Source of the DNA: a virus
DNA: 28,783 bases
IMG/VR virus record: IMGVR_UViG_3300023112_000655
Coordinates: 1-28,783 of that record
Strand: one strand, 5' to 3'
In this document: piece after piece, positions 2,484 to 14,329 of the stretch
Layout of the letters: each line of letters opens with the position of its first letter
How positions within the stretch are numbered: the first letter of the stretch is position 1
The notes under the pieces: generated by a model
The model's input: only the letters and a program-made list of their open reading frames with translations
The model's database searches: none
Told to the model about the DNA's origin: nothing
Position numbers and translations under genes: made by a program

Positions 2484-4625
2484 ATGATAGATAATAATGA
2501 AATACAGAAAAGGTGGCAATTTGCCTGGGAAGCTAAACAAGATGAGCTATCTCGTATAGAGAAGGCTTCTTGGTGGCTTTATGAATTTGAACGACACCTT
2601 GAAAGAGGTGAAGAAGGACACGCAGCATACAGATTCCCTGAAACAATGGGGTATCTTTTGCGTAGATATAACAACTTCCTTAGTGTTATTCCAGAAGCTA
2701 GAGCAACAATGAACGGAGATGAAGGATTAACGATGCAGTCTACGCTGGATCATTTTCAACGTGTAGCTAATATGACTCGTACACGAATGCAAGCTCTATG
2801 GCATACAGCTGGATATGGTAATTCAGCAATATGTGTAGTTCCTAATAGATACACTCAATACGATAGGAAGAAAGATAAATGGTACACAAAATATAGAGGA
2901 GTAGCTTCTGAGCATGTAGATTGGAGACATTTGTTTCCAGCTCCAGGGTTCCAGAACTTACACGATCATACTGGATTGAATCAATGTCCGTGGGTATTTA
3001 GAAAGAAAATCTTCCAAATAGATACATTTAGACGAATATACAGTGATCCTAAGTATAAGAACGTAGATCAAGTAAGTCCTACTACATGGGGAGATACTAA
3101 TGTTTGGTATGACGATAAGTTCAAGAAGAAGCATGAAACAGAAGAGCTTACTTCACAGAAAGAATTCGTAACCGTATTAGAATACTATGATGTTGAAAAC
3201 GATATATACTCAATCAACGCCTCTGGAGGAATTGAAATCTACAACTCACCAGATGGTATTGAGCTATCACATAAAGAGTTTCCATTTCATCAGTACAGGA
3301 ATATCCAAAGAGGAGACACTATCAACGGAATGGGTGAGATAGAGCTTAATCTTCCATATAATCTGTTTAGAGAGAAGATAATGAACCTAGCAATAGATGA
3401 CGCAATGCTACAAGTTCAGCCAGCATTAGTAGTAGATGGGGATATTAACTTCAATCCTGAAGAGCATGAACTACAATCTGGAGCTATATTTGATGTAAGA
3501 GGACCAGTAAACGGTAAACTACAGGATCATATTATGCCATTAAGACCAGGAGGAGGTATTACACAAGGAGTAATGTCAATGATTCAGATGGTTGAGAACT
3601 CAAGAATAGCTGTTACTTCAGACGATACAACAGCTCTTTATTCAAATCCTAATCAATTAGCTACTCAAACATTGGCTAAAATGCAGACACTTAATAAGAG
3701 TATTGACGCTTCTACTAAGCAGAATATCTACGATGCTGAATTCTATATGACTAGACAGACATTATCTTACATAAAGAATGAGCTATCAGAACCTATTAGA
3801 GAAGATAAGAAGATCGTTTACCCACTTGTTAAGGTGAAAGGATACAAAGCTGTGCAGAATAAACCTGATTCAGGAGTTAAGTTCGTAAAACAGCAAGGAG
3901 CGATTGATAAATTCAATCTTAATAAAAAGATTACAAATACATTCGATATAGATGAAATAGAGATCATCTCAGCTCAGAAAGATGAAGAATTGAAGAGAGA
4001 TCAGACTGAGAAGCTAATGATGCTCCTACAGACAACTATGAGCACCCTAAGTAACTTAGCTCAGACTAATCCTAGTTTGATACAAGAGATATTCGGAACA
4101 ATGGACTTCTCAGAACTAATGAAATATATGGCTAAGAACCTTGGATTAGGTGATGAGTTACAGGATATCTTCCCAGTAATAGAGAAGACTGGAGTAGAAC
4201 TTGATGAGATCGATGCAGAGCATGACTTAGTTGCAGCAGGTATCGTTCCAACTATTAAGCAGGGTGAAGATAGTGAATCCCATTACGGAGAGCACGTATT
4301 GTTTATGGGATCTAAAGTATTCAAGGATCTAGGTAAACAAGCTAAAGAAGCTCTTAATAAGCATTTAGAGATGACAGTTAAAAATATAATTAACCAAAAG
4401 GTCTATGTTGACAGAAAAACTGCACAAACCACCGATGGAGAGGAAGGAATGGGCACGACTCAAGAAGTATCTACCAGACGAAGCAATCCGAGCACTGGAG
4501 GTATGGTGGGTAACTCGTTTGGAGGAGATAAACCAGAAGCTAATCAAATCACTGGAGACACATTGGCTCCACAAAATATACCGCAAACTGCTAGGCCAGG
4601 AGAGCAACCTAACCCTGTTGGCTGA
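2484..4625 (+). CDS. Portal protein (P22-type, large)
   Basis: A 713-aa protein forming the dodecameric ring at the capsid vertex through which DNA is packaged and ejected. Its size is that of the P22-like large portals rather than the 400-500-aa siphovirus type. The amino part is rich in Trp/Tyr and helical. The core at about residues 280-350 (GMGEIELNLPYNLFREK, then LQVQPALVVDGDI and SGAIFDVRGP) is a typical portal wing/stem pattern, with the long helical segments at about 380-430. Residues about 500-580 are helical. The last 80 residues are low-complexity Gly/Thr/Asn/Pro sequence, and that part is overprinted by another frame. A hairpin lies just upstream and scaffold and capsid genes follow. 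Confidence 0.88.
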   Translation: MIDNNEIQKRWQFAWEAKQDELSRIEKASWWLYEFERHLERGEEGHAAYRFPETMGYLLRRYNNFLSVIPEARATMNGDEGLTMQSTLDHFQRVANMTRTRMQALWHTAGYGNSAICVVPNRYTQYDRKKDKWYTKYRGVASEHVDWRHLFPAPGFQNLHDHTGLNQCPWVFRKKIFQIDTFRRIYSDPKYKNVDQVSPTTWGDTNVWYDDKFKKKHETEELTSQKEFVTVLEYYDVENDIYSINASGGIEIYNSPDGIELSHKEFPFHQYRNIQRGDTINGMGEIELNLPYNLFREKIMNLAIDDAMLQVQPALVVDGDINFNPEEHELQSGAIFDVRGPVNGKLQDHIMPLRPGGGITQGVMSMIQMVENSRIAVTSDDTTALYSNPNQLATQTLAKMQTLNKSIDASTKQNIYDAEFYMTRQTLSYIKNELSEPIREDKKIVYPLVKVKGYKAVQNKPDSGVKFVKQQGAIDKFNLNKKITNTFDIDEIEIISAQKDEELKRDQTEKLMMLLQTTMSTLSNLAQTNPSLIQEIFGTMDFSELMKYMAKNLGLGDELQDIFPVIEKTGVELDEIDAEHDLVAAGIVPTIKQGEDSESHYGEHVLFMGSKVFKDLGKQAKEALNKHLEMTVKNIINQKVYVDRKTAQTTDGEEGMGTTQEVSTRRSNPSTGGMVGNSFGGDKPEANQITGDTLAPQNIPQTARPGEQPNPVG
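4390..4394 (+). promoter_or_regulatory. TTAAC start element inside the portal gene
   Basis: TTAAC lies ten bases before the ATG at 4405. The same element at 8-11 bases precedes nine other starts in the window. The wider context TTAACCAAA also precedes the decoration protein start (5667-5675). It supports 4405 as a genuine start of the overlapping ORF. Confidence 0.4.
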
Positions 4626-4761
4626 GAAAAAGCTCTGTCAGAGATTCATATCTGATTTAAAGTCAGTAATCACTGCAAGAGCTAACGAAAGAAAGAGGAC
4701 CTTTAAAATCAAGGAAGAGATGGCGGAATACAAACGTCGTCGAATATCACAAACTATGTAG
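4405..4761 (+). CDS. Basic helical protein overprinting the portal 3' end
   Basis: A 118-aa ORF in the +1 frame relative to the portal, overlapping it by 221 bases and continuing 136 bases past the portal stop. The product is highly charged and helical with several tryptophans (EVWWVTRLEEINQKL at about 32-46) and a Lys/Arg-rich tail ending KRRRISQTM. No family is recognised. An open frame this long is unlikely by chance in AT-rich DNA, and a TTAAC element precedes the ATG by ten bases. Alternatives are an ATG at 4435, or a TTG at 4618 that would leave a 47-48-aa protein overlapping only the last codons of the portal. The stop lies inside the left arm of the 4754-4804 hairpin. Confidence 0.55.
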   Translation: MLTEKLHKPPMERKEWARLKKYLPDEAIRALEVWWVTRLEEINQKLIKSLETHWLHKIYRKLLGQESNLTLLAEKKLCQRFISDLKSVITARANERKRTFKIKEEMAEYKRRRISQTM

Positions 4762-4831: not shown

Positions 4832-5662
4832 ATGGATGAAACATCTTCAACCGACGACATTCAGGTCGAGGTAACGAAGGACACCGTCGAGCCAGTGCAA
4901 ACTGAGCAAACAGGTGGAGCGGAAGACACCGCTATTAAAAACGATGCGCCTACACCAGAGGCAAAAGCCGAGGAAGGTAAGGGTGGTAATGTTGGAGCCG
5001 TAATTGAGAAACTTGGTAATGACAAGAAAGCTGCATACGAGGATCTAATGGATCTAGCAATGGAAAGTGAAGTAGCTAGAGACAAGATCAAAGCTAAAAT
5101 ACAATCTGATCCTTCAATGGAGAAGTATGTAAAAAGCAAGTTCGGAACGCAGTACGATCAAATCATGTCTGATAAGCCAGTAACGAAGACAGAAGGACTT
5201 GATTTGGAAAAGATCAGGGAAGAAGAGCGTATTAAAGCTCGAGCAGAACTGATTGAAAAACAGATTGTAACTAACCGAGATAAGTATCTCGACCAGAAAG
5301 CTGTAGAGTTTGGGTTTAATGCAGATGAGACGGAGAAGTTTAAAAAGACTTTCGATGTCCTATCTGGAGTAGAAGCTGATGAAGACGCAGCTGCAAGATC
5401 AGCAGCAAGAGTCGTCAACGATGAAAAGGTATCAGCTAAACCAATCTCGCATAATACAGCTGGAGGAGGAGAAGCACCAGCCCCAGTAGATTCCAAGATA
5501 GTCAAGGTATCAGCTGGTTTAGCAGAGTTTGCAAAGTCCAGAGGTATAGAGTTGAAGGAATTCGCTCGAGAGATCGCAACGATCCAAGAGCGTTCAAGCG
5601 TCGATAATAAAGGAGTAAGTGTATTATCACTTCCACCTTTAAAAGACGTGAAGCCAGAATAA
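4832..5662 (+). CDS. Scaffolding protein
   Basis: A 276-aa, strongly acidic, Glu/Lys/Ala-rich protein lying between portal and capsid genes, where phage scaffolds are normally encoded. The first 55 residues are disordered in appearance (Thr/Glu/Ala/Pro-rich). Residues about 55-200 are predicted helical with heptad-like spacing (KIREEERIKARAELIEKQ at about 126-143). The carboxyl part has a Gly/Ala/Pro linker and a short helix near 220-260. It should assemble inside the prohead and leave before packaging. A TTAAC element is nine bases before the ATG. No protease motif is seen here. The assignment rests on composition and position. Confidence 0.72.
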   Translation: MDETSSTDDIQVEVTKDTVEPVQTEQTGGAEDTAIKNDAPTPEAKAEEGKGGNVGAVIEKLGNDKKAAYEDLMDLAMESEVARDKIKAKIQSDPSMEKYVKSKFGTQYDQIMSDKPVTKTEGLDLEKIREEERIKARAELIEKQIVTNRDKYLDQKAVEFGFNADETEKFKKTFDVLSGVEADEDAAARSAARVVNDEKVSAKPISHNTAGGGEAPAPVDSKIVKVSAGLAEFAKSRGIELKEFAREIATIQERSSVDNKGVSVLSLPPLKDVKPE

Positions 5663-5682: not shown

Positions 5683-6150
5683 ATGGCAGATTTTAGATTC
5701 CGAGGCACTCTCAATGGAGAAGATGCTGTAGGAGTAGTAAAAGATGTTGTAGCAGGAACAGCTGCTTCTATTGCTATTGGTGATCTAGTAATCCCTGATG
5801 ATGTTAATCCAGGGTATGTACGATTGATTGCTAATGCAGAAGTTATAGCTGCTGCTTATCGTGTTTACATCGCACTAAGTGCTTCAGATGAAACAGCTGG
5901 TGTAGATGGAACGGTAAAACTTCAATACGCTCCAAACATGATACTAGAAGGGACTGCGACAACTCCAGCCAACCTAGTACAAGCAGTAATTGATACTCTA
6001 GTTACAGTAGATGTAAATACAGGAGTAATTACTGTAGATGAAAATGACACTGCAAACGGATTCCTAAGGATTAAACGTCCTCAGGGTGGTGCAGGCAACT
6101 TCGAAACTACATCAGGTGTAATGGAAGTTATCGCAAATCCAACTAACTAA
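5683..6150 (+). CDS. Capsid decoration/stabilisation protein
   Basis: A 155-aa, beta-rich protein just before the major capsid gene. The opening (ADFRFRGTLNG, then KDVVAGTAASIAIGDLVI) resembles DUF2190-type capsid decoration proteins, in which an early GDLV strand and Gly/Val/Ala-rich strands form a small beta domain. The end (GFLRIKRPQGG...ETTSGVMEVIANPTN) is a plausible closing strand. It most likely sits on the outer capsid surface and stabilises the expanded head. TTAAC lies 11 bases before the ATG. It is 20 bases from both the scaffold and capsid genes, so the three are probably co-transcribed. The family match is by pattern, not by search. Confidence 0.6.
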   Translation: MADFRFRGTLNGEDAVGVVKDVVAGTAASIAIGDLVIPDDVNPGYVRLIANAEVIAAAYRVYIALSASDETAGVDGTVKLQYAPNMILEGTATTPANLVQAVIDTLVTVDVNTGVITVDENDTANGFLRIKRPQGGAGNFETTSGVMEVIANPTN

Positions 6151-6170: not shown

Positions 6171-7067
6171 ATGAGTTTTACAAGTCTTAAACCAAGTGAG
6201 GTTGACTTGCTCGTAAAGAAAGAGTTTCTTTCTGGATACGAGTCATATACCCCACATGGTCAAATGATCTTCAACATCGACACTCCAGATCGTCTCAATG
6301 AGAAAGAGTCTGTAGTAACGACTGATGGAGACATTCCACAAGTTGCAGAAGGAGCTGATTATCCAGAAGCTCAGATCCGTGAACTTGGAACACAAACATT
6401 CACATCTCTTGAATACAAGAAGAAGTTTGGAATCACAGAACTAATGATGGATTTCTCAAACTACGGTTCTACAATGAAAGAAATGAGGATGGCTGGATAC
6501 AGAGCTAGATACAAACAAGATCTGTTGATGGAACAAACTCTTTCAGGAGGGTTCGCTACAACAACAACTTGGGACGGTGAGTATCTATTCTCTGCTTCTC
6601 ACGAAGTATCAGATACAGGAGTAACACAATCAAACCTGATTACAGGTGCGATGACAAAAGACAAGCTTAACGAGATGTATATCGCTCTTAAGCAAATGAA
6701 GGCACATGATGGACTAAAGATGCCTTTACAAACAGCTTATCTAGTAGTGCCAACTGCACTTAAGATGACTGCTTGGGAACTAATCAGTTCTCCAGACGAT
6801 CCAACAACAGCTGATCGTTCAAAGAACTTCATCAATAGCTTGAACATCAAGATTATTGAATGGCCACTACTTGATGATAGTTCAACATCTGCATACTTCA
6901 TGTGTTCAGAGAAGATGTTCCACACTCTTACTGCTTACCAGAAAGCACAACCAAGCATGAGAATGTACATCGACGAAGACACAGGAAATATGTACGAGAA
7001 AGTTAGATTCGTTCAGACACAAGGAGCGACTGACTACTTTGGAACTGTAGGATCTACAGGTCTATAA
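6171..7067 (+). CDS. Major capsid protein (HK97 fold, gpT-like)
   Basis: A 298-aa protein in the classic position after scaffold and decoration genes. The pattern resembles Mu gpT-type capsid proteins. It has an N-arm without a long delta domain, the E-loop/A-strand region VVTTDGDIPQVAEGADYP (about 48-65), the spine-helix segment around 98-122 (MKEMRMAGYRARYKQDLL), and WDGEYLFSASHE at about 134-145. An A-domain part (LQTAYLVVPTALKM) is followed by a closing GATDYFGTVGSTG. No N-terminal propeptide cleavage site is obvious, which fits a separate scaffold. TTAAC lies 11 bases before the ATG. The structured gap after the stop may stabilise or bound this highly expressed message. Confidence 0.85.
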   Translation: MSFTSLKPSEVDLLVKKEFLSGYESYTPHGQMIFNIDTPDRLNEKESVVTTDGDIPQVAEGADYPEAQIRELGTQTFTSLEYKKKFGITELMMDFSNYGSTMKEMRMAGYRARYKQDLLMEQTLSGGFATTTTWDGEYLFSASHEVSDTGVTQSNLITGAMTKDKLNEMYIALKQMKAHDGLKMPLQTAYLVVPTALKMTAWELISSPDDPTTADRSKNFINSLNIKIIEWPLLDDSSTSAYFMCSEKMFHTLTAYQKAQPSMRMYIDEDTGNMYEKVRFVQTQGATDYFGTVGSTGL

Positions 7068-7068
7068 A

Positions 7069-7105
7069 GACCTCTGGTGGGGCTGCTTGACCTCTAGTGA
7101 GGGCT
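7069..7105 (+). repeat. Imperfect tandem-like direct repeat after the capsid gene
   Basis: Two copies of gacctct(g/a)gtg(-/a)gggct occur at 7069-7084 and 7089-7105, differing by one substitution and one insertion. The second copy contributes the left arm of a CTCTAG/CTAGAG hairpin (7092-7097 with 7104-7109). It lies in the non-coding gap 7068-7167. Confidence 0.55.
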
Positions 7106-7124
7106 AGAGAGGAAAGCTACGGCT

Positions 7125-7150
7125 GATATAAACAGCTCCATCTTTATATC
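7125..7150 (+). promoter_or_regulatory. Perfect 8-bp inverted repeat before the next gene
   Basis: GATATAAA (7125-7132) and TTTATATC (7143-7150) form a perfect stem with a ten-base loop, ending 17 bases before the ATG at 7168. The TTAAC element (7153-7157) follows directly. It could be an operator or an RNA hairpin. No U-run follows, so it is not a standard terminator. Confidence 0.4.
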
Positions 7151-7167
7151 CCTTAACAATTTAAAAC

Positions 7168-8076
7168 ATGGGAGATACACATTTTTCAGGACCACTTTAT
7201 GTGGCAGGTGAGGAAATCGTTAATGAAAATGGTGAGGTAGTTGCTGATATTGAATTTGATGCCAGTGGTGGTATTACAGACAGTAATGGCAATGAATTAC
7301 TAGACTTTACGGTAACGACAGCAGCTATAAACAATATTGATATTGGGAATGCAGCTATAGGGGATAGTCCAGCTATTACAGCAATAGGTGACGACACTAA
7401 TATTGGTATTAACCTTACTCCTAAAGGGAGCGAAGGTGTCCATGTAAATGCAGGTCCTCAGTCTGGTCTTGAGGTTTACGTAGAAGACGACGGTGCATCT
7501 GGAGGAGGGATAGTAATGAATCTTGATTCAGCTTCTCCAGCAGCGGATGATAACCTAGGGAACATTGTATTCGTAGGTAATGATGATGGTGGTAACGAAA
7601 CTCAGTATGCAGTAATACAAGGATTTATTGCAGACCCTACTGATGGTAGTGAAGAAGGAGCATTGGTCTATAACGTAATGAACGGTAGCGGAGCTTTGGA
7701 AGAAGTTTGCTCTATTGAAAGTAACGGAGTAGGTCTAGCGAAGATTCTTTATCTTTCTACAGAAGTATTAGCAGCAACCTCAGAAGGAGTTGCGGCTTCT
7801 ATTGCTACAATAGTTTCTAAAATTACTACCAACGGAGATACAGATGAAGATGCAGTTACTCTTGCAGACGGTGATGAAGATGGACAAATTAAAAAGTTTA
7901 TCGTTTCAGTCGTAGGCAATGCAGCTGATTCAGTAAAGATTACTCCAGCTAAGATGATTGGTGGAACTCAGATTACATTCGCAGCTAATCCTTTGGGAAA
8001 AGGTTGTGAAATGATTTGGGATGAAGCAGCTGATGGTTGGGTAGTTTGCGCTAACAACGGAGGAACAATAGCTTAA
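7168..8076 (+). CDS. Beta-rich virion protein, probably head fibre or decoration
   Basis: A 302-aa Gly/Asp/Ala-rich protein directly after the capsid gene. The amino part (DTHFSGPLYVAGEEI) resembles openings of small phage surface proteins. Repeated short strands with DG/NG turns follow. The last 100 residues (DGDEDGQIKKFIVSVVGNA, then ITPAKMIGGTQITFAA and a closing MIWDEAADGWVVCANNGG) match a beta-sandwich pattern common at the ends of phage decoration and fibre proteins: D-G-Q, I-T-P, G-G-T-x-I-T-F and W...GW...NNG. It has no enzyme motif and no membrane segment. Attachment to head or tail cannot be decided. TTAAC is ten bases before the start. Confidence 0.5.
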   Translation: MGDTHFSGPLYVAGEEIVNENGEVVADIEFDASGGITDSNGNELLDFTVTTAAINNIDIGNAAIGDSPAITAIGDDTNIGINLTPKGSEGVHVNAGPQSGLEVYVEDDGASGGGIVMNLDSASPAADDNLGNIVFVGNDDGGNETQYAVIQGFIADPTDGSEEGALVYNVMNGSGALEEVCSIESNGVGLAKILYLSTEVLAATSEGVAASIATIVSKITTNGDTDEDAVTLADGDEDGQIKKFIVSVVGNAADSVKITPAKMIGGTQITFAANPLGKGCEMIWDEAADGWVVCANNGGTIA

Positions 8077-8088
8077 TCTTTTTTTTAG

Positions 8089-8118
8089 GGAGAGAGGGGG
8101 TGATAAAAATCGCTCTCC
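8089..8118 (+). promoter_or_regulatory. Hairpin between two virion protein genes
   Basis: GGAGA (8089-8093) and GTGAT (8100-8104) pair with TCTCC (8114-8118) and ATCGC (8109-8113) around an AAAA loop, with a bulge at 8094-8099. A run of eight T (8079-8086) lies before, not after, the hairpin, so on the + strand it is not a terminator. It may be a processing or pausing element. Confidence 0.35.
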
Positions 8119-8157
8119 TCATAAAGAGATTATAGAAATCATTTAATTAAAAACAAT

Positions 8158-9333
8158 ATGACATTACTTAACACAGGACAACAACTAGAGGTCAGTGAGC
8201 AGAGAAGGCTTCCAGTTGATAACGTAGGAACAGATGCCATTACACCCGTAACAGGCGAAACTGTTCAACTATATTTCTATAATTCAGGAGTTTATACAAT
8301 TGATGCAGGACAAGCTGCTGGAGTTGTAGTAGTAGGTAAACTAGCTTATAGGAATGTAAAGAACGCCCTAGGAGACGTTACAGGAACTTATAATGATACT
8401 TCTCTATCTTTTACTTCTACGGCTCTTACAACTGAGGTAAAGTTCCCTAACATCATAGCGGAGCGTAACGATAGATTAACAGGAACGGTTAAAGCAGCGG
8501 CAATTACTGAAGGATTCGCCAATGGTGAATACTGTGTGGATTATAGAACAGGAGCGATTTACGGTGTAAAAGCTGATGCTTCAGTCACTTTAACTTCTAC
8601 TGCTTATAAGGTTGAGACAAATACATCAGGATCAGGTGGTGGTGGAATCGCTTCAGACGTAAATGTAGCTAAAGTGGGGGGAACAGCGGTTACATTGGGA
8701 CAAAAGGCTATGGCGGCTTCTATTCCAGTTGTTTTGCCATCTGACCAAACAGTGGGAGGAGCTGATGTAGACGATTCTGCGTTCACAGCTGGAACAGACC
8801 AAGGGCAAGTTGTTATGGGATTCTATGATACTACTGATGATGAAGTAGATGATGGAGACAAAGGAGCACTTAAAATGACAGCTAAGCGTAGACTTGAGAC
8901 TAGAAGTGAAGCTTATGATAGTTCTACACAGTCAGATAGAACAGCAGAGGTTAATCCTCTAAACCAACAGTACGTTAGTGAGACCCTAATAGATGAGACA
9001 AACATTACTGCAAACACAACTACATACGCTTATATAGATATGGCAGGTGTTAAGTATGTTGGTATACAGGGAGAGACAAGTGGAGCTGCACCAACCGATG
9101 TATTGACTGTTACCTTTGAGGCTTCTGTTCAAGATGATGGTACTGCCGCAGCAAGTTGTGACTACCAAGACGTTACTAACGCTTTGACTGGTTCAGCTAG
9201 CTTTGTAGATACAGACTTCATTGGAATTCTTGATACAGTTCTTCCAGTTAAATACTTGAGGGTTAAGTACGTTACATCGGCTGGGGGAGGAAACGATGCT
9301 GACCTTACAGTTTATACAAAAAAGCTATATTGA
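8158..9333 (+). CDS. Two-domain beta-rich virion protein
   Basis: A 391-aa protein with two parts joined by a Ser/Gly linker at about 156-163. The first part has strands ending in NGEYCVDYRTGAIYGV and a Thr/Ser-rich strand, a pattern seen in phage surface beta domains. The second part has AASIPVVLPSDQTV (about 186-199), a phrase recurrent in phage fibre and accessory virion proteins, and ends in repeated Val/Thr strands (LPVKYLRVKYV). No enzymatic residue set is visible. It uses a TTAAT variant of the start element ten bases before the ATG and ends in TGA. A head-fibre or tail-accessory role is inferred from the neighbours. Confidence 0.45.
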   Translation: MTLLNTGQQLEVSEQRRLPVDNVGTDAITPVTGETVQLYFYNSGVYTIDAGQAAGVVVVGKLAYRNVKNALGDVTGTYNDTSLSFTSTALTTEVKFPNIIAERNDRLTGTVKAAAITEGFANGEYCVDYRTGAIYGVKADASVTLTSTAYKVETNTSGSGGGGIASDVNVAKVGGTAVTLGQKAMAASIPVVLPSDQTVGGADVDDSAFTAGTDQGQVVMGFYDTTDDEVDDGDKGALKMTAKRRLETRSEAYDSSTQSDRTAEVNPLNQQYVSETLIDETNITANTTTYAYIDMAGVKYVGIQGETSGAAPTDVLTVTFEASVQDDGTAAASCDYQDVTNALTGSASFVDTDFIGILDTVLPVKYLRVKYVTSAGGGNDADLTVYTKKLY

Positions 9334-9352: not shown

Positions 9353-9856
9353 ATGACAAAAAAGAAATGTACAAAATGCGGAGATGATAAAGCTTTGGAC
9401 CAATTCTATTCTTATAAAAGTGGACCTAGGGCTGGGAGTTTATATGGAGAATGCAAGGATTGCCACTTTGTACGTACGGAAAAATGGAGAAAGAATAACA
9501 GGAATAAGAGTTGTCAATATACAAAAGCGCATAGGGATAAATTAAAAGAAAAGATGTCTAAGGAAGAATGGTCAGAATTCCACAGAGAAGTTAATTTAAT
9601 GCAGAAGTTTGGATTAACATTAGAGGATTACGATTTAATGCTAGAAGAACAGAATGGGGTATGTGCTATATGTGGAGAAGAGGAAACATCTATCAGGCTA
9701 GGTAAGACGAAATTATTAGCAGTAGACCATGACCACGAGACGGGCGAAGTAAGAGGTTTATTGTGTGCTAGGTGTAACATGGCAATAGGACTTCTGAATG
9801 AAGATATAGATATATTAAAGAGTGCGATAAAATATATCACAAAAAAACTTTACTAA
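9353..9856 (+). CDS. Endonuclease VII-like HNH nuclease
   Basis: A 167-aa protein with an amino zinc ribbon (CTKC at 6-9, CKDC at 34-37) and a recombination endonuclease VII-type nuclease domain. The latter starts at about residue 86 (FGLTLEDYDLMLEEQNGVC) with a Cys pair at 104/107, the active-site DHDH at 125-128 and the second Cys pair at 138/141 (GLLCARCN). All residues expected for zinc binding and catalysis are present, so it should be active. T4 endonuclease VII resolves branched DNA before packaging, but many stand-alone relatives behave as mobile homing nucleases. Its insertion between structural genes fits the latter. Confidence 0.85.
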   Translation: MTKKKCTKCGDDKALDQFYSYKSGPRAGSLYGECKDCHFVRTEKWRKNNRNKSCQYTKAHRDKLKEKMSKEEWSEFHREVNLMQKFGLTLEDYDLMLEEQNGVCAICGEEETSIRLGKTKLLAVDHDHETGEVRGLLCARCNMAIGLLNEDIDILKSAIKYITKKLY

Positions 9857-10750: not shown

Positions 10751-11344
10751 ATGTTAAAAGGAGTAGAGACCAAAACTTGTTCTATCTGTAAGGAGGCTAA
10801 AGAAGCTCCTAGCTTTGGTGTGAAAGGGCTTTGGTGTAAAGAGTGCAAATCTTTGAATGACAAGAAGTACTACCAGGCGAATAAAGATAAAATTAAGGCA
10901 CAGACTTCTGCTTATTACAATGAGAATAGGGAGCAGATAACTGCTAAATGGCGTACAGATGAACACAAGCAGAAGCTACAAGAGCGTAGGCATGCTAGCG
11001 GAGTACTGGAACAGGGAACACCTGAGTTCAAAGAGATGATTAAGGCTCGCCCTCAAAACAATATGACAGGAGAAAAGAATCCAAGGTGGGCTGGTGATGA
11101 TTACAAGGGGCGAAGGAACTCTCTGTACAGAAAACTTGTGGGAAAAGTCTTGGGACGAGACCTGGAGGCTTCTGAGGATGTTCACCACAAAGACGGAGAC
11201 TTTACAAATAACAACATTGATAATCTCGAGGTAATGAGTAGAGCGGAACATATGAGGATTCACGCTATAGAGCACGTAAAGCAAGCGGTAAGAGACGAGA
11301 AGGGTAGGTTCGTATCATTTAACCAATTACAATATGGGGCTTAA
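10751..11344 (+). CDS. HNH homing endonuclease
   Basis: A 197-aa protein with an amino zinc ribbon (CSIC at 10-13, CKEC at 29-32), a basic helical middle, and an HNH domain of the homing type. The domain has DVHHKDGDFTNNNIDNLEV at about 143-161, with His145/146 and the NNN motif, and EHMRIH at 166-171. GEKNPRW at about 107-113 is typical of the region before this HNH type. The end (DEKGRFVSF) resembles a short DNA-binding tail. It is probably a free-standing mobile nuclease inserted upstream of the adhesin genes. Its last bases overlap the next start by 11 bases and supply that gene's TTAAC element. Confidence 0.82.
   Translation: MLKGVETKTCSICKEAKEAPSFGVKGLWCKECKSLNDKKYYQANKDKIKAQTSAYYNENREQITAKWRTDEHKQKLQERRHASGVLEQGTPEFKEMIKARPQNNMTGEKNPRWAGDDYKGRRNSLYRKLVGKVLGRDLEASEDVHHKDGDFTNNNIDNLEVMSRAEHMRIHAIEHVKQAVRDEKGRFVSFNQLQYGA
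11319..11323 (+). promoter_or_regulatory. TTAAC start element inside the HNH gene
   Basis: TTAAC lies exactly ten bases before the ATG at 11334, within the HNH gene codons for Phe-Asn. As with the site at 4390-4394, it is followed by CAA. A start element retained in a coding overlap supports a functional role. Confidence 0.4.
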
Positions 11345-12635
11345 ATATGCTTCCAGACCATCAGAGGACGTAGTGTTTAGAGAGAACTTCATCAACGATG
11401 ATTATGTTACTGATAATGGTGGAGTTGCAACAGGCTCACCTACTATCAGCAATGGGGTAACCATGAACGGTTCTAGTCAGCTAGTGAGTTATGGTGACAT
11501 AGCTAATCTAGGTGCTGACAACTTTTCTTTTAACTTCAAGGTTAGTTTTACATCAGCAGACACACAGAATTATATTTTCTCTAAATGGGGGGACGCAAAT
11601 AATAGGTGGTATATAAGAAGGGACGTTAATGGATCGATATTTATGTTTTGTTTGGTAGGTGGAGTGATTAAGATTTCTGGTGTTTCTGCTACAGGGGTTA
11701 TCTCTGCGGCGAATACCGAATATGACATTACTATCTCAGGAGACTGGAGTGATACTTTACGGTTCTATGTAGATGGAGCAGCTTCAGTCGGCTTGGTAAC
11801 AACCTTTGTCAATGCCGACATCACTAATACTGGACCTTTTGAAATAGGAAGAGCAAATGCTGCTTACGGTGCATTTACAATGAAGGATTTGACTATTCGT
11901 AACAGGGCAATAACAGAAGAAGAGGCTGTAGATGTTTATGAGAACGACACATTTACAAGTATGGATGCAGGAAAGATGGAGATGTTCCTTAATGCCAGAA
12001 GTCATTTTGACGATGGTTCTGATGAGGTGACAGAGAATATCGGGACTGCTGGGAATGTTTATTGGGGAGATGGCGCAGGAAGCGCAGAGCCAGATTTACT
12101 AGAGCATAACGGGGTAGATTTTACTTCAGGAGCTGTTTACTTAAAGAAGCCAGCCCCTGTAATAGTTGCCGCTACTACTGAAACAATTTCAGTGGGAGGG
12201 CTTATGCGCCTTGATTCGCTGGGGACACAGTGCATAATGGAAAGTGACAACAACTGGTTATTAACTGTTCTTGCTGGAAATGGGATAGGGCTTGAGCTTA
12301 ATGATGGTGGTGGGGCTTACCACAACTACAGGTTTTCAAATACATTCCCACAAGTAGGGCAATGGGCGCACGTAGTGGGTGTTTATGATGGTTCCGAAGC
12401 ATCGACTGGGTTCAAGATATACTTTAATGGAGTAGAGCAGCCATATGGATTGGCGAGTTGGCACGGAGGGCTTACCCATAATGCCACAAGTACAGCGGTG
12501 GGGATTCGTGCTACTAATTATACATCGACTCCTTTAGATGGGGCAATGAAGTTTCCGTTCGCAGTTAAACAAGCACTCACTCCTACACAGATAAAGGAAT
12601 TATCAAATAAAGCATTCGCTAACTTAAACATATGA
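11334..12635 (+). CDS. Double LamG-domain adhesin-like virion protein
   Basis: A 433-aa protein with two concanavalin A/LamG-type jelly rolls. The first spans about residues 15-205. It has FSFNFKVSFTSADTQNYIFSKW split near 64-85, the RFYVDGAASVG hairpin near 143-153, and FEIGRANAAYGAFTMKDLTIRN before the usual LTxEE-like AITEEEAVDVY. The second spans about 225-430, with QWAHVVGVYDG, FKIYFNGVEQPYG and a closing ALTPTQIKEL. These features match Laminin_G_3-type domains in phage receptor-binding or decoration proteins. It likely binds glycans on the host surface. The stop overlaps the next gene start (ATGA), so the two are coupled. Confidence 0.75.
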   Translation: MGLKYASRPSEDVVFRENFINDDYVTDNGGVATGSPTISNGVTMNGSSQLVSYGDIANLGADNFSFNFKVSFTSADTQNYIFSKWGDANNRWYIRRDVNGSIFMFCLVGGVIKISGVSATGVISAANTEYDITISGDWSDTLRFYVDGAASVGLVTTFVNADITNTGPFEIGRANAAYGAFTMKDLTIRNRAITEEEAVDVYENDTFTSMDAGKMEMFLNARSHFDDGSDEVTENIGTAGNVYWGDGAGSAEPDLLEHNGVDFTSGAVYLKKPAPVIVAATTETISVGGLMRLDSLGTQCIMESDNNWLLTVLAGNGIGLELNDGGGAYHNYRFSNTFPQVGQWAHVVGVYDGSEASTGFKIYFNGVEQPYGLASWHGGLTHNATSTAVGIRATNYTSTPLDGAMKFPFAVKQALTPTQIKELSNKAFANLNI

Positions 12636-14329
12636 TAAGAGATAAATACAAGGCAAACGAAGTAATCTCTTATGATTTTCGTAAGGGTTCACTTGCAGAC
12701 CAAACTAGTACAAATGATATTACGAGTGTAACTGATTCTTATTTTGAGAAGTCACCTGCTCGTAGTCTTTTCTGTAATGGTTCTAGTTCTCTTTCTGCAT
12801 CTAATGCAAATGTAGGGCTTACTGGGAATCAATCAATGACTGTTACAGCTTTGATTGTAAATAAGAATAATGGTAACGGAAACAATAAAAGAATTTTCAG
12901 ACTAGGAAATACGTCTGCTAATGCTTTCTTTTCTGGGACTGTTAATGATGATGGCACTGTTTTATTGGATAACTGGGGTGGAAATTTAGCCACTACTGAT
13001 GCATTGGAAAACGGTAAGATTTACCATCTAACTTTCAAGTATGATGGAACTAATAGATATATTTATATCAATGGTTCTTTGTCTAATTCAGGAGCTTATT
13101 CAGCTTTGTCATTAACAGATGCAAAGATATATCTTGGCTCAAAAAGTGCTGGTAGTGATGCTTGGAAAGGGAATATCCAAGTTATAACTGTTTACAATAC
13201 GGCTATTTCAGATGAAGATATTGCAAAGATTGCCGAAGAAGAATTAACAAGTAAACCTTACAACATAGTAGACTACAAGAGTAATGGTAATTATAGAAAC
13301 TTCTTACCTGACGGAGATTGCGAAGAGGCTGGAGTAGGTAGATGGGAGGCTAGAAACAGTGCGACTATTACAAAGGTAACTGGTGGAGTTGCAGGACAGG
13401 CACTAAGAGTTGCTTATAACGGTTCTAATAGTCCTGGAGCAATGCAAGCTGTGTTCCAGGTTGGAAAAACATATAGACTTAGAGGATATGCAAAAGGAGA
13501 CGGAGTGTTTGACCCTAAGATTTATACTGGAGCTGGAGCAGCCATTAAAACTAACTTTGGAACAATCACAGACTGGACATACTTTGACATAATCTGGACT
13601 GCTGACAACACAAAAGCTGCTTGGTCTTCTAGCGCAACCAGTGCTGGTTACGCAGAATGGGATGAGCTAGAGATATTCGAATGTGAATTAGACGGTACGC
13701 CAAAATATACTGAAGCTTATATAGCAGATGGTAAAGGATGGAACGAGACCATAGCCCCAATAGCTGCTGATGGATACGTGACTAATACTGGATGGTATAG
13801 AGAACTTGGAAATATCGACGTAAATGCATATGATGGTTTCAACAAAGACTTTACATGTAATGCTGGGCCAATGGCATTAGTATTACCAAGTTATCAGGCA
13901 TATGGAACATGGGAGTTTGATTTCTATAAAGGAGCTGAGGGGAATTCTAGCCGTGTAGGATTTATAGCGGAGATTCCTGGAGATTATGCAACAGCAGGAC
14001 AGAATGGATATTATTTTACATTAACATCAGTAGAGTCTGTTCGTTTAATTCTCTCAACTAATGGTTCAGCTAGTATTTTATCTGAGAGTTCTACTGGTTA
14101 TTTAAGCAACAATACTTGGTATAAGATTAAGATAACTAGAGATAGGAGCAATAAGTTCACTATGTATTATTCAACAGATGATGGAAAGAATTATACTTTG
14201 ATAGATGCTAGTGTTACTGGCTCTAATCCAGTTACTAACTCAGTACACACAGAATGTAAGATGGTTTCAACCTACATGACTACATCTGATAAGTTAAGAA
14301 ACTTTAAATTTATTCCTTACATACAATAA
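12632..14329 (+). CDS. LamG/jelly-roll receptor-binding-type protein
   Basis: A 565-aa protein with three apparent beta modules. Residues about 1-212 form a LamG domain (KIYHLTFKYDGTNRYIYING, KIYLGSKSAGSDAWKG, then TAISDEDIAKIAEEEL). Residues about 225-355 resemble a CBM4/9-like carbohydrate-binding jelly roll (NFLPDGDCEEAGVGRWE, then FQVGKTYRLRGYAKGDG and YAEWDELEIFE). Residues about 385-565 form a third sandwich (YGTWEFDFYKGAEGN; NNTWYKIKITRDRSNKFTMY). Binding of host sugars is the probable role. It is translationally coupled to the previous gene by an ATGA overlap, with CTAAC eight bases before the ATG. No depolymerase active site is recognisable. Confidence 0.7.
   Translation: MIRDKYKANEVISYDFRKGSLADQTSTNDITSVTDSYFEKSPARSLFCNGSSSLSASNANVGLTGNQSMTVTALIVNKNNGNGNNKRIFRLGNTSANAFFSGTVNDDGTVLLDNWGGNLATTDALENGKIYHLTFKYDGTNRYIYINGSLSNSGAYSALSLTDAKIYLGSKSAGSDAWKGNIQVITVYNTAISDEDIAKIAEEELTSKPYNIVDYKSNGNYRNFLPDGDCEEAGVGRWEARNSATITKVTGGVAGQALRVAYNGSNSPGAMQAVFQVGKTYRLRGYAKGDGVFDPKIYTGAGAAIKTNFGTITDWTYFDIIWTADNTKAAWSSSATSAGYAEWDELEIFECELDGTPKYTEAYIADGKGWNETIAPIAADGYVTNTGWYRELGNIDVNAYDGFNKDFTCNAGPMALVLPSYQAYGTWEFDFYKGAEGNSSRVGFIAEIPGDYATAGQNGYYFTLTSVESVRLILSTNGSASILSESSTGYLSNNTWYKIKITRDRSNKFTMYYSTDDGKNYTLIDASVTGSNPVTNSVHTECKMVSTYMTTSDKLRNFKFIPYIQ

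Follow-up and report, generated by a model that had tools for sequence, protein, structure and literature searches.

The 3′ end of the portal gene in the window, positions 1 to 28,783 of an IMG/VR viral record, appears to harbor a second, genuine gene (4405..4761, + strand; 118 aa), the first 73 codons of which share their bases with the last tenth of the portal gene but are read in a shifted frame. Comparison of seven lineages shows that both frames are under selection in all of them and that conservation of the product extends from the ATG onward. As a whole, the available sequences are quite probably best explained by a genuine overlapping gene that is expressed through internal initiation and has a proposed role in the phage head.

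The portal gene (2484..4625, + strand; 713 aa) was recognized by its match to the PHROG 332 connector family (E 9e-10) and by its homologs. The smaller gene lies in its +1 frame, and 221 bases (4405..4625, + strand) are common to both, as a sequence-only reading of this DNA had described. That reading also regarded long same-strand overlaps as rare, which agrees with the published lengths of +1 overlaps: the median is 14 nt (IQR 8–26) across 12,609 virus genomes (PMC8903798), and 221 is far in the tail. The portal C-terminal tail encoded by the shared bases is of low complexity, again as had been noted.

Homologs and selection in both reading frames

Searches based on the terminase, on the core of the portal, and on two degenerate DNA patterns identified six further independent lineages, namely, L008 (the same as L009), L026, L029, L033, L035, and L036. 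These are uncultivated viral contigs with portals that are 41–56% identical to that of the window. Two other contigs represent the same virus as the window (99.95–99.98% identity over 8.6 kb) and were uninformative; the relatives at hand are either such near-identical copies or have about 41–56% portal identity. All six lineages have an ATG-initiated open reading frame of 105–108 codons in the same frame and at the same place at the portal 3′ end, with overlaps of 173–221 bases: L008 (5534-5860; 108 aa, overlap 206), L026 (6007-6333; 108 aa, overlap 206), L029 (3844-4170; 108 aa, overlap 221), L033 (966-1292; 108 aa, overlap 221), L036 (9067-9390; 107 aa, overlap 218), and L035 (8720-9037; 105 aa, overlap 173). 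Each of the seven lineages, including the window, has the long overlap of a gene pair without a stop in either frame over the shared stretch. Stops or frameshifts in the +1 frame of relatives, which the sequence-only reading had named as grounds for rejecting the gene, are absent from the six other lineages. A portal tblastn search against cultured phages and scans of genome contigs gave no match. Vibrio phage D93 has a weak match to the L029 product (E 0.4), which was dismissed, as no recognizable portal adjoins it.

The window product is similar to that of L008 (E 7e-8 in a single pairwise comparison) and is matched by a profile of the other six members (E 6e-13; leave-one-out, 7065 ORFs). 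The same leave-one-out procedure (7065 ORFs) gave E 5e-21 to 3e-37 for five other members and E 0.003 for the most distant one, L035. Conservation is not confined to the part past the portal stop, which was another possible objection, and starts at the first residue of the product with the pattern MLxxK....LPIxKKxWxEL.

The suppression of synonymous change in the portal frame that had been proposed as a check over 4405-4625 was found. At portal residues shared between lineages, the same codon is used 1.78 times as often as expected inside the overlap (342 comparisons) vs. 1.11 times outside (5728 comparisons); the lineage pairs are non-independent, and these values are given as observed/expected ratios without a P value. 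In bins of 25 columns, the ratio is 0.91–1.30 through portal codon 615, 1.45 at codons 616–639, and 1.72, 1.91, and 1.75 across codons 640–713, which form the overlap. The step in synonymous constraint falls at the predicted place, i.e., in the overlap and in the bin directly before it; this bin (616–639) lies just before the ATG, at the site of the start element. Selection on both frames is thus indicated by the synonymous constraint together with the conserved second product.

The protein product and its possible role

The products of this family have 105–118 aa and a pI of 9.5–10.2. The window product (14.4 kDa) contains four Trp among its 118 residues, has a pI of 10.0 and a net charge of about +12, and is predicted to be all-helical, which bears out its earlier description as Trp-, Lys-, and Arg-rich and helical. 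AlphaFold2, based on the seven sequences, predicted a helical hairpin (pLDDT ~80, pTM 0.6) with helices at residues 13–22, 25–56, and 62–117 of the window product, and the model of the L029 product is a similar hairpin. Since the overlap encodes the first two helices, half of the predicted hairpin would be missing from a truncated gene model. A PHROG search with the seven members returned nothing below 0.03 and provided no named family. Pfam has no family common to more than two of the seven, and its weak single-member matches (best 5e-4) are to eukaryotic or unrelated families; the PDB sequence search found no convincing match. With Foldseek, the model had no match with E below 0.5 in PDB and none below 0.1 in BFVD; the best VIA-align Z of 10.6 is within the range of generic helical bundles, and the fold matches only generic coiled-coil hairpins. 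The product is a new protein family, and the overlapping gene itself is of a known kind. Phages are known to make two proteins from the same bases by out-of-frame overlap and internal initiation, as in Rz/Rz1 of lambda and the genes of phiX174. Those cases involve other genes and proteins, whereas the overlap described here belongs to an uncultivated lineage and involves the 3′ end of a portal gene. Literature searches for earlier descriptions of this overlap found none.

In the window, TerS (273-797, + strand), TerL (676-2259, + strand), and a 45-aa frame between TerL and the portal (+ strand) precede the gene pair. Downstream are genes for a probable scaffolding protein (4832..5662, + strand; 276 aa), a probable head decoration protein (5683..6150, + strand; 155 aa), and the major capsid protein (6171..7067, + strand; 298 aa; Pfam Phage_capsid_4, E 6e-14). 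The scaffolding protein was assigned by its acidic N-terminus and its place between portal and capsid, and had no family match in the Pfam and PHROG searches; the decoration protein was assigned by position and has a homolog wherever the locus of a relative covers this stretch. The overlapping gene is always directly 3′ of the portal, and the order portal, overlapping gene, scaffold-like gene, decoration, and capsid is found in the relatives whose loci extend that far. Three relatives also have short, very basic frames downstream of the overlapping gene and before the scaffold, namely, L029 (4173-4346), L036 (9401-9592), and L026 (~6335-6454), and none is present in the window.

Judging from this gene order, the basic helical product might act between portal and scaffold during head assembly, e.g., as a small factor that binds either of them, and its overlap with the portal gene would keep the output of the two proteins coupled. 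Such a role is our best guess and is put forward tentatively, because the place after the portal is fixed and unrelated phages (UFV-P2, ctxSa4, L039, L041, and L045) also put a small helical gene there; the generic helical fold is the other basis for it. That the gene is real but encodes a protein that binds DNA or is ejected, or one with an early regulatory function, has a lesser but real chance. A small, basic (pI 9.5–10.2), and helical product without a family match would suit such functions, but the fixed position within the packaging and head operon and the fact that in many tailed phages (L017, L039, L041, L045, and UFV-P2) the portal is immediately followed by a small helical gene argue for the head.

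Among these phages, the LUZ24-like Pseudomonas phage UFV-P2 has the same order of portal, small gene, scaffold, and capsid, and its small protein (AGH88967.1, 83 aa) is apparently helical, whereas its gene overlaps the portal by only 1 base. The comparison of this protein with the window family gave an hhalign probability of 0.1%, although short helical proteins can lose similarity. Podoviridae sp. ctxSa4 (MW202718.1), which has a terminase 31% identical to that of the window, has a post-portal gene of similar size (UOF81025.1, 121 aa), but the portal overlap is 4 bases, the portal is unrelated, and the post-portal gene has no significant similarity. The small post-portal gene of L017 has no detectable homology to the family, and the family profile found no match in L032 (a distant relative with 28% portal identity), L039, and L041 and reached only E 0.8 in L045.

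Start and extent of the gene

The product and the portal are likely translated from one late mRNA, the former through independent internal initiation at the ATG in which the TTAAC element would take part. In the window, an in-frame TAA (4387..4389, + strand), five codons upstream of the ATG at 4405, closes the +1 frame, and a +1 stop is found 0–5 codons ahead of the ATG in all seven lineages. Therefore, the product would start at the ATG and not via a frameshift further upstream.

The TTAAC element (4390..4394, + strand) is inside the portal coding sequence, ten bases upstream of the ATG, as the sequence-only reading had stated. It precedes the ATG in five of the seven lineages (window, L026, L029, L033, and L036); L008 and L035 have TAAC, which is common to all seven homologs. 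The element is not special to this gene, however, since in these viruses TTAAC is present within −22 to −4 (19 bases) at 30 of 76 gene starts vs. 1.5 expected (p 4e-31). The result is unaffected by two coordinates among the 76 (L029 1965 and L036 10507) that were marked as not being start codons. Shine-Dalgarno-like words were found at three of the 76. The first T of TTAAC is 13–18 bases ahead of the start codon, and the distance from TTAAC(C) to the start is about 8–13 bases. In the window, TTAAC(C) precedes the starts at 4405, 4832, 5683, 6171, 7168, 10434, 11334, 16913, and 18811; such starts also occur in L008, L026, L029, L036, and L010. The enrichment before starts was not found in crAss001 and is weak in Flavobacterium phage 11b. 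These patterns suggest that TTAAC is probably an initiation signal. We consider it rather doubtful that this element, at about 8–13 bases before the start, replaces Shine-Dalgarno as the true initiation signal and starts genes deep inside others (the portal/4405 pair and possibly TerS/TerL); if it did, the host ribosome would use an undescribed recognition mode.

Programmed frameshifting is a common device in phage tail genes, and with both genes on the same strand in a +1 relation, the second frame could be entered from the portal to produce a portal with an alternative C-terminus. This is very unlikely, since the upstream stop leaves at most five codons for the shift, or else the shift would have to occur past the ATG, and the conservation from M1 would be unexplained. 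We give even less credence to the possibility that only the part past the portal stop is real, as a short gene from TTG 4618 or similar. Such a gene would match the expected output of a gene finder with a 60-base limit, and codon usage is typical only past the portal stop, but the N-terminal residues within the overlap are conserved from M1, the alternative starts do not correspond across lineages, and the overlap is under synonymous constraint.

For the openness of the frame, we used a null model in which the portal protein was kept, synonymous codons were redrawn from the usage of each portal, and the +1 frame was read. In the window, the recoded +1 frame then has 2.6 stops on average and stays open in 2.4% of draws. 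The values for the seven lineages are 2.4, 6.6, 0.95, 0.2, 5.6, 15.5, and 4.3%, and the product of the probabilities for zero stops across all seven is ~1e-11 under synonymous recoding. Similarity of the +1 products between lineages is above this null in nearly all pairs (z 3–18) and is weak only with L035. Stops interrupt the +2 frame of all seven lineages, and the pairs that include the window do not exceed the null similarity in this frame. That the frame is untranslated and open only because of the compositional bias of the portal tail, in which Pro, Gly, Gln, and Ala codons avoid +1 stops, is the least probable reading and is already refuted as far as sequence can do so: single genomes are open often enough (0.2–15% of synonymous recodings), but all seven are open with a conserved ATG, a +1 protein similarity exceeding the null, a conserved continuation past the portal stop, and synonymous constraint in the portal frame.

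Age of the overlap, annotation, and other observations

The portal tail is poorly conserved as a protein, with 9–48% identity inside the overlap vs. 39–66% outside. Codon usage in the overlap is genome-typical in the portal frame and atypical in the +1 frame in six of the seven lineages; that of the smaller gene turns typical past the portal stop. Because of this difference, we lean toward the portal reading being the older one, with the start of the small gene probably extended into a tolerant, low-complexity portal tail. The evidence on age is mixed, however: the +1 protein is better conserved than the portal tail across the overlap, which speaks against this polarity. The opposite scenario, in which the smaller gene is the older one and the portal tail expanded into it, was considered in view of the seemingly tailless L032 and was dropped, as reading TGA as sense in L032 restores the tail and the codon usage is contrary. 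L032 (IMGVR_UViG_3300036985_004989) has in-frame TGA codons in the portal and capsid genes (reverse complement of about 7000-9190), several of which occupy Gly positions, as well as a tRNA (anticodon TCA) at 7794-7867 (−). TGA looks to be read as Gly (code 25), and hence L032 looks like a phage of Gracilibacteria or Absconditabacteria.

Prodigal limits same-strand overlaps to 60 bp (PMC2848648), in line with the earlier remark that gene callers restrict them. Within this limit, the longest frames left have 33–53 residues, and their starts do not correspond between lineages. Therefore, the family would be absent from automatic annotation or truncated to a stub of this size, as had been expected for the homologs, and standard annotation cannot report it in full because the gene lies under the portal. 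The gene would add a conserved protein family to those of the head module in this lineage of uncultivated tailed phages. It also suggests that double-stranded DNA phages of ordinary genome size can retain overlaps longer than 200 bases and that a start signal can lie within another coding sequence. Screening of portal 3′ ends for such frames could probably recover more missed head proteins.

A second long overlap is present in the same operon, where TerS and TerL of the window overlap in the +1 frame at 676-797. Overlaps of this kind, 122–137 bases long, were found in five lineages, namely, the window, L008 (1777-1913), L026 (2226-2350), L010 (2126-2250), and L043 (4964-5100). The TerL N-terminus is conserved in four of these five, and the chance of an open frame is 0.1–1.9% each. 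Between its head and tail genes, the window has Endonuclease VII-like and HNH endonuclease genes (9353-9856 and 10751-11344). Two adjacent genes (11334-12635 and 12632-14329) contain Laminin_G_3 (concanavalin-like) domains and possibly encode virion adhesins.
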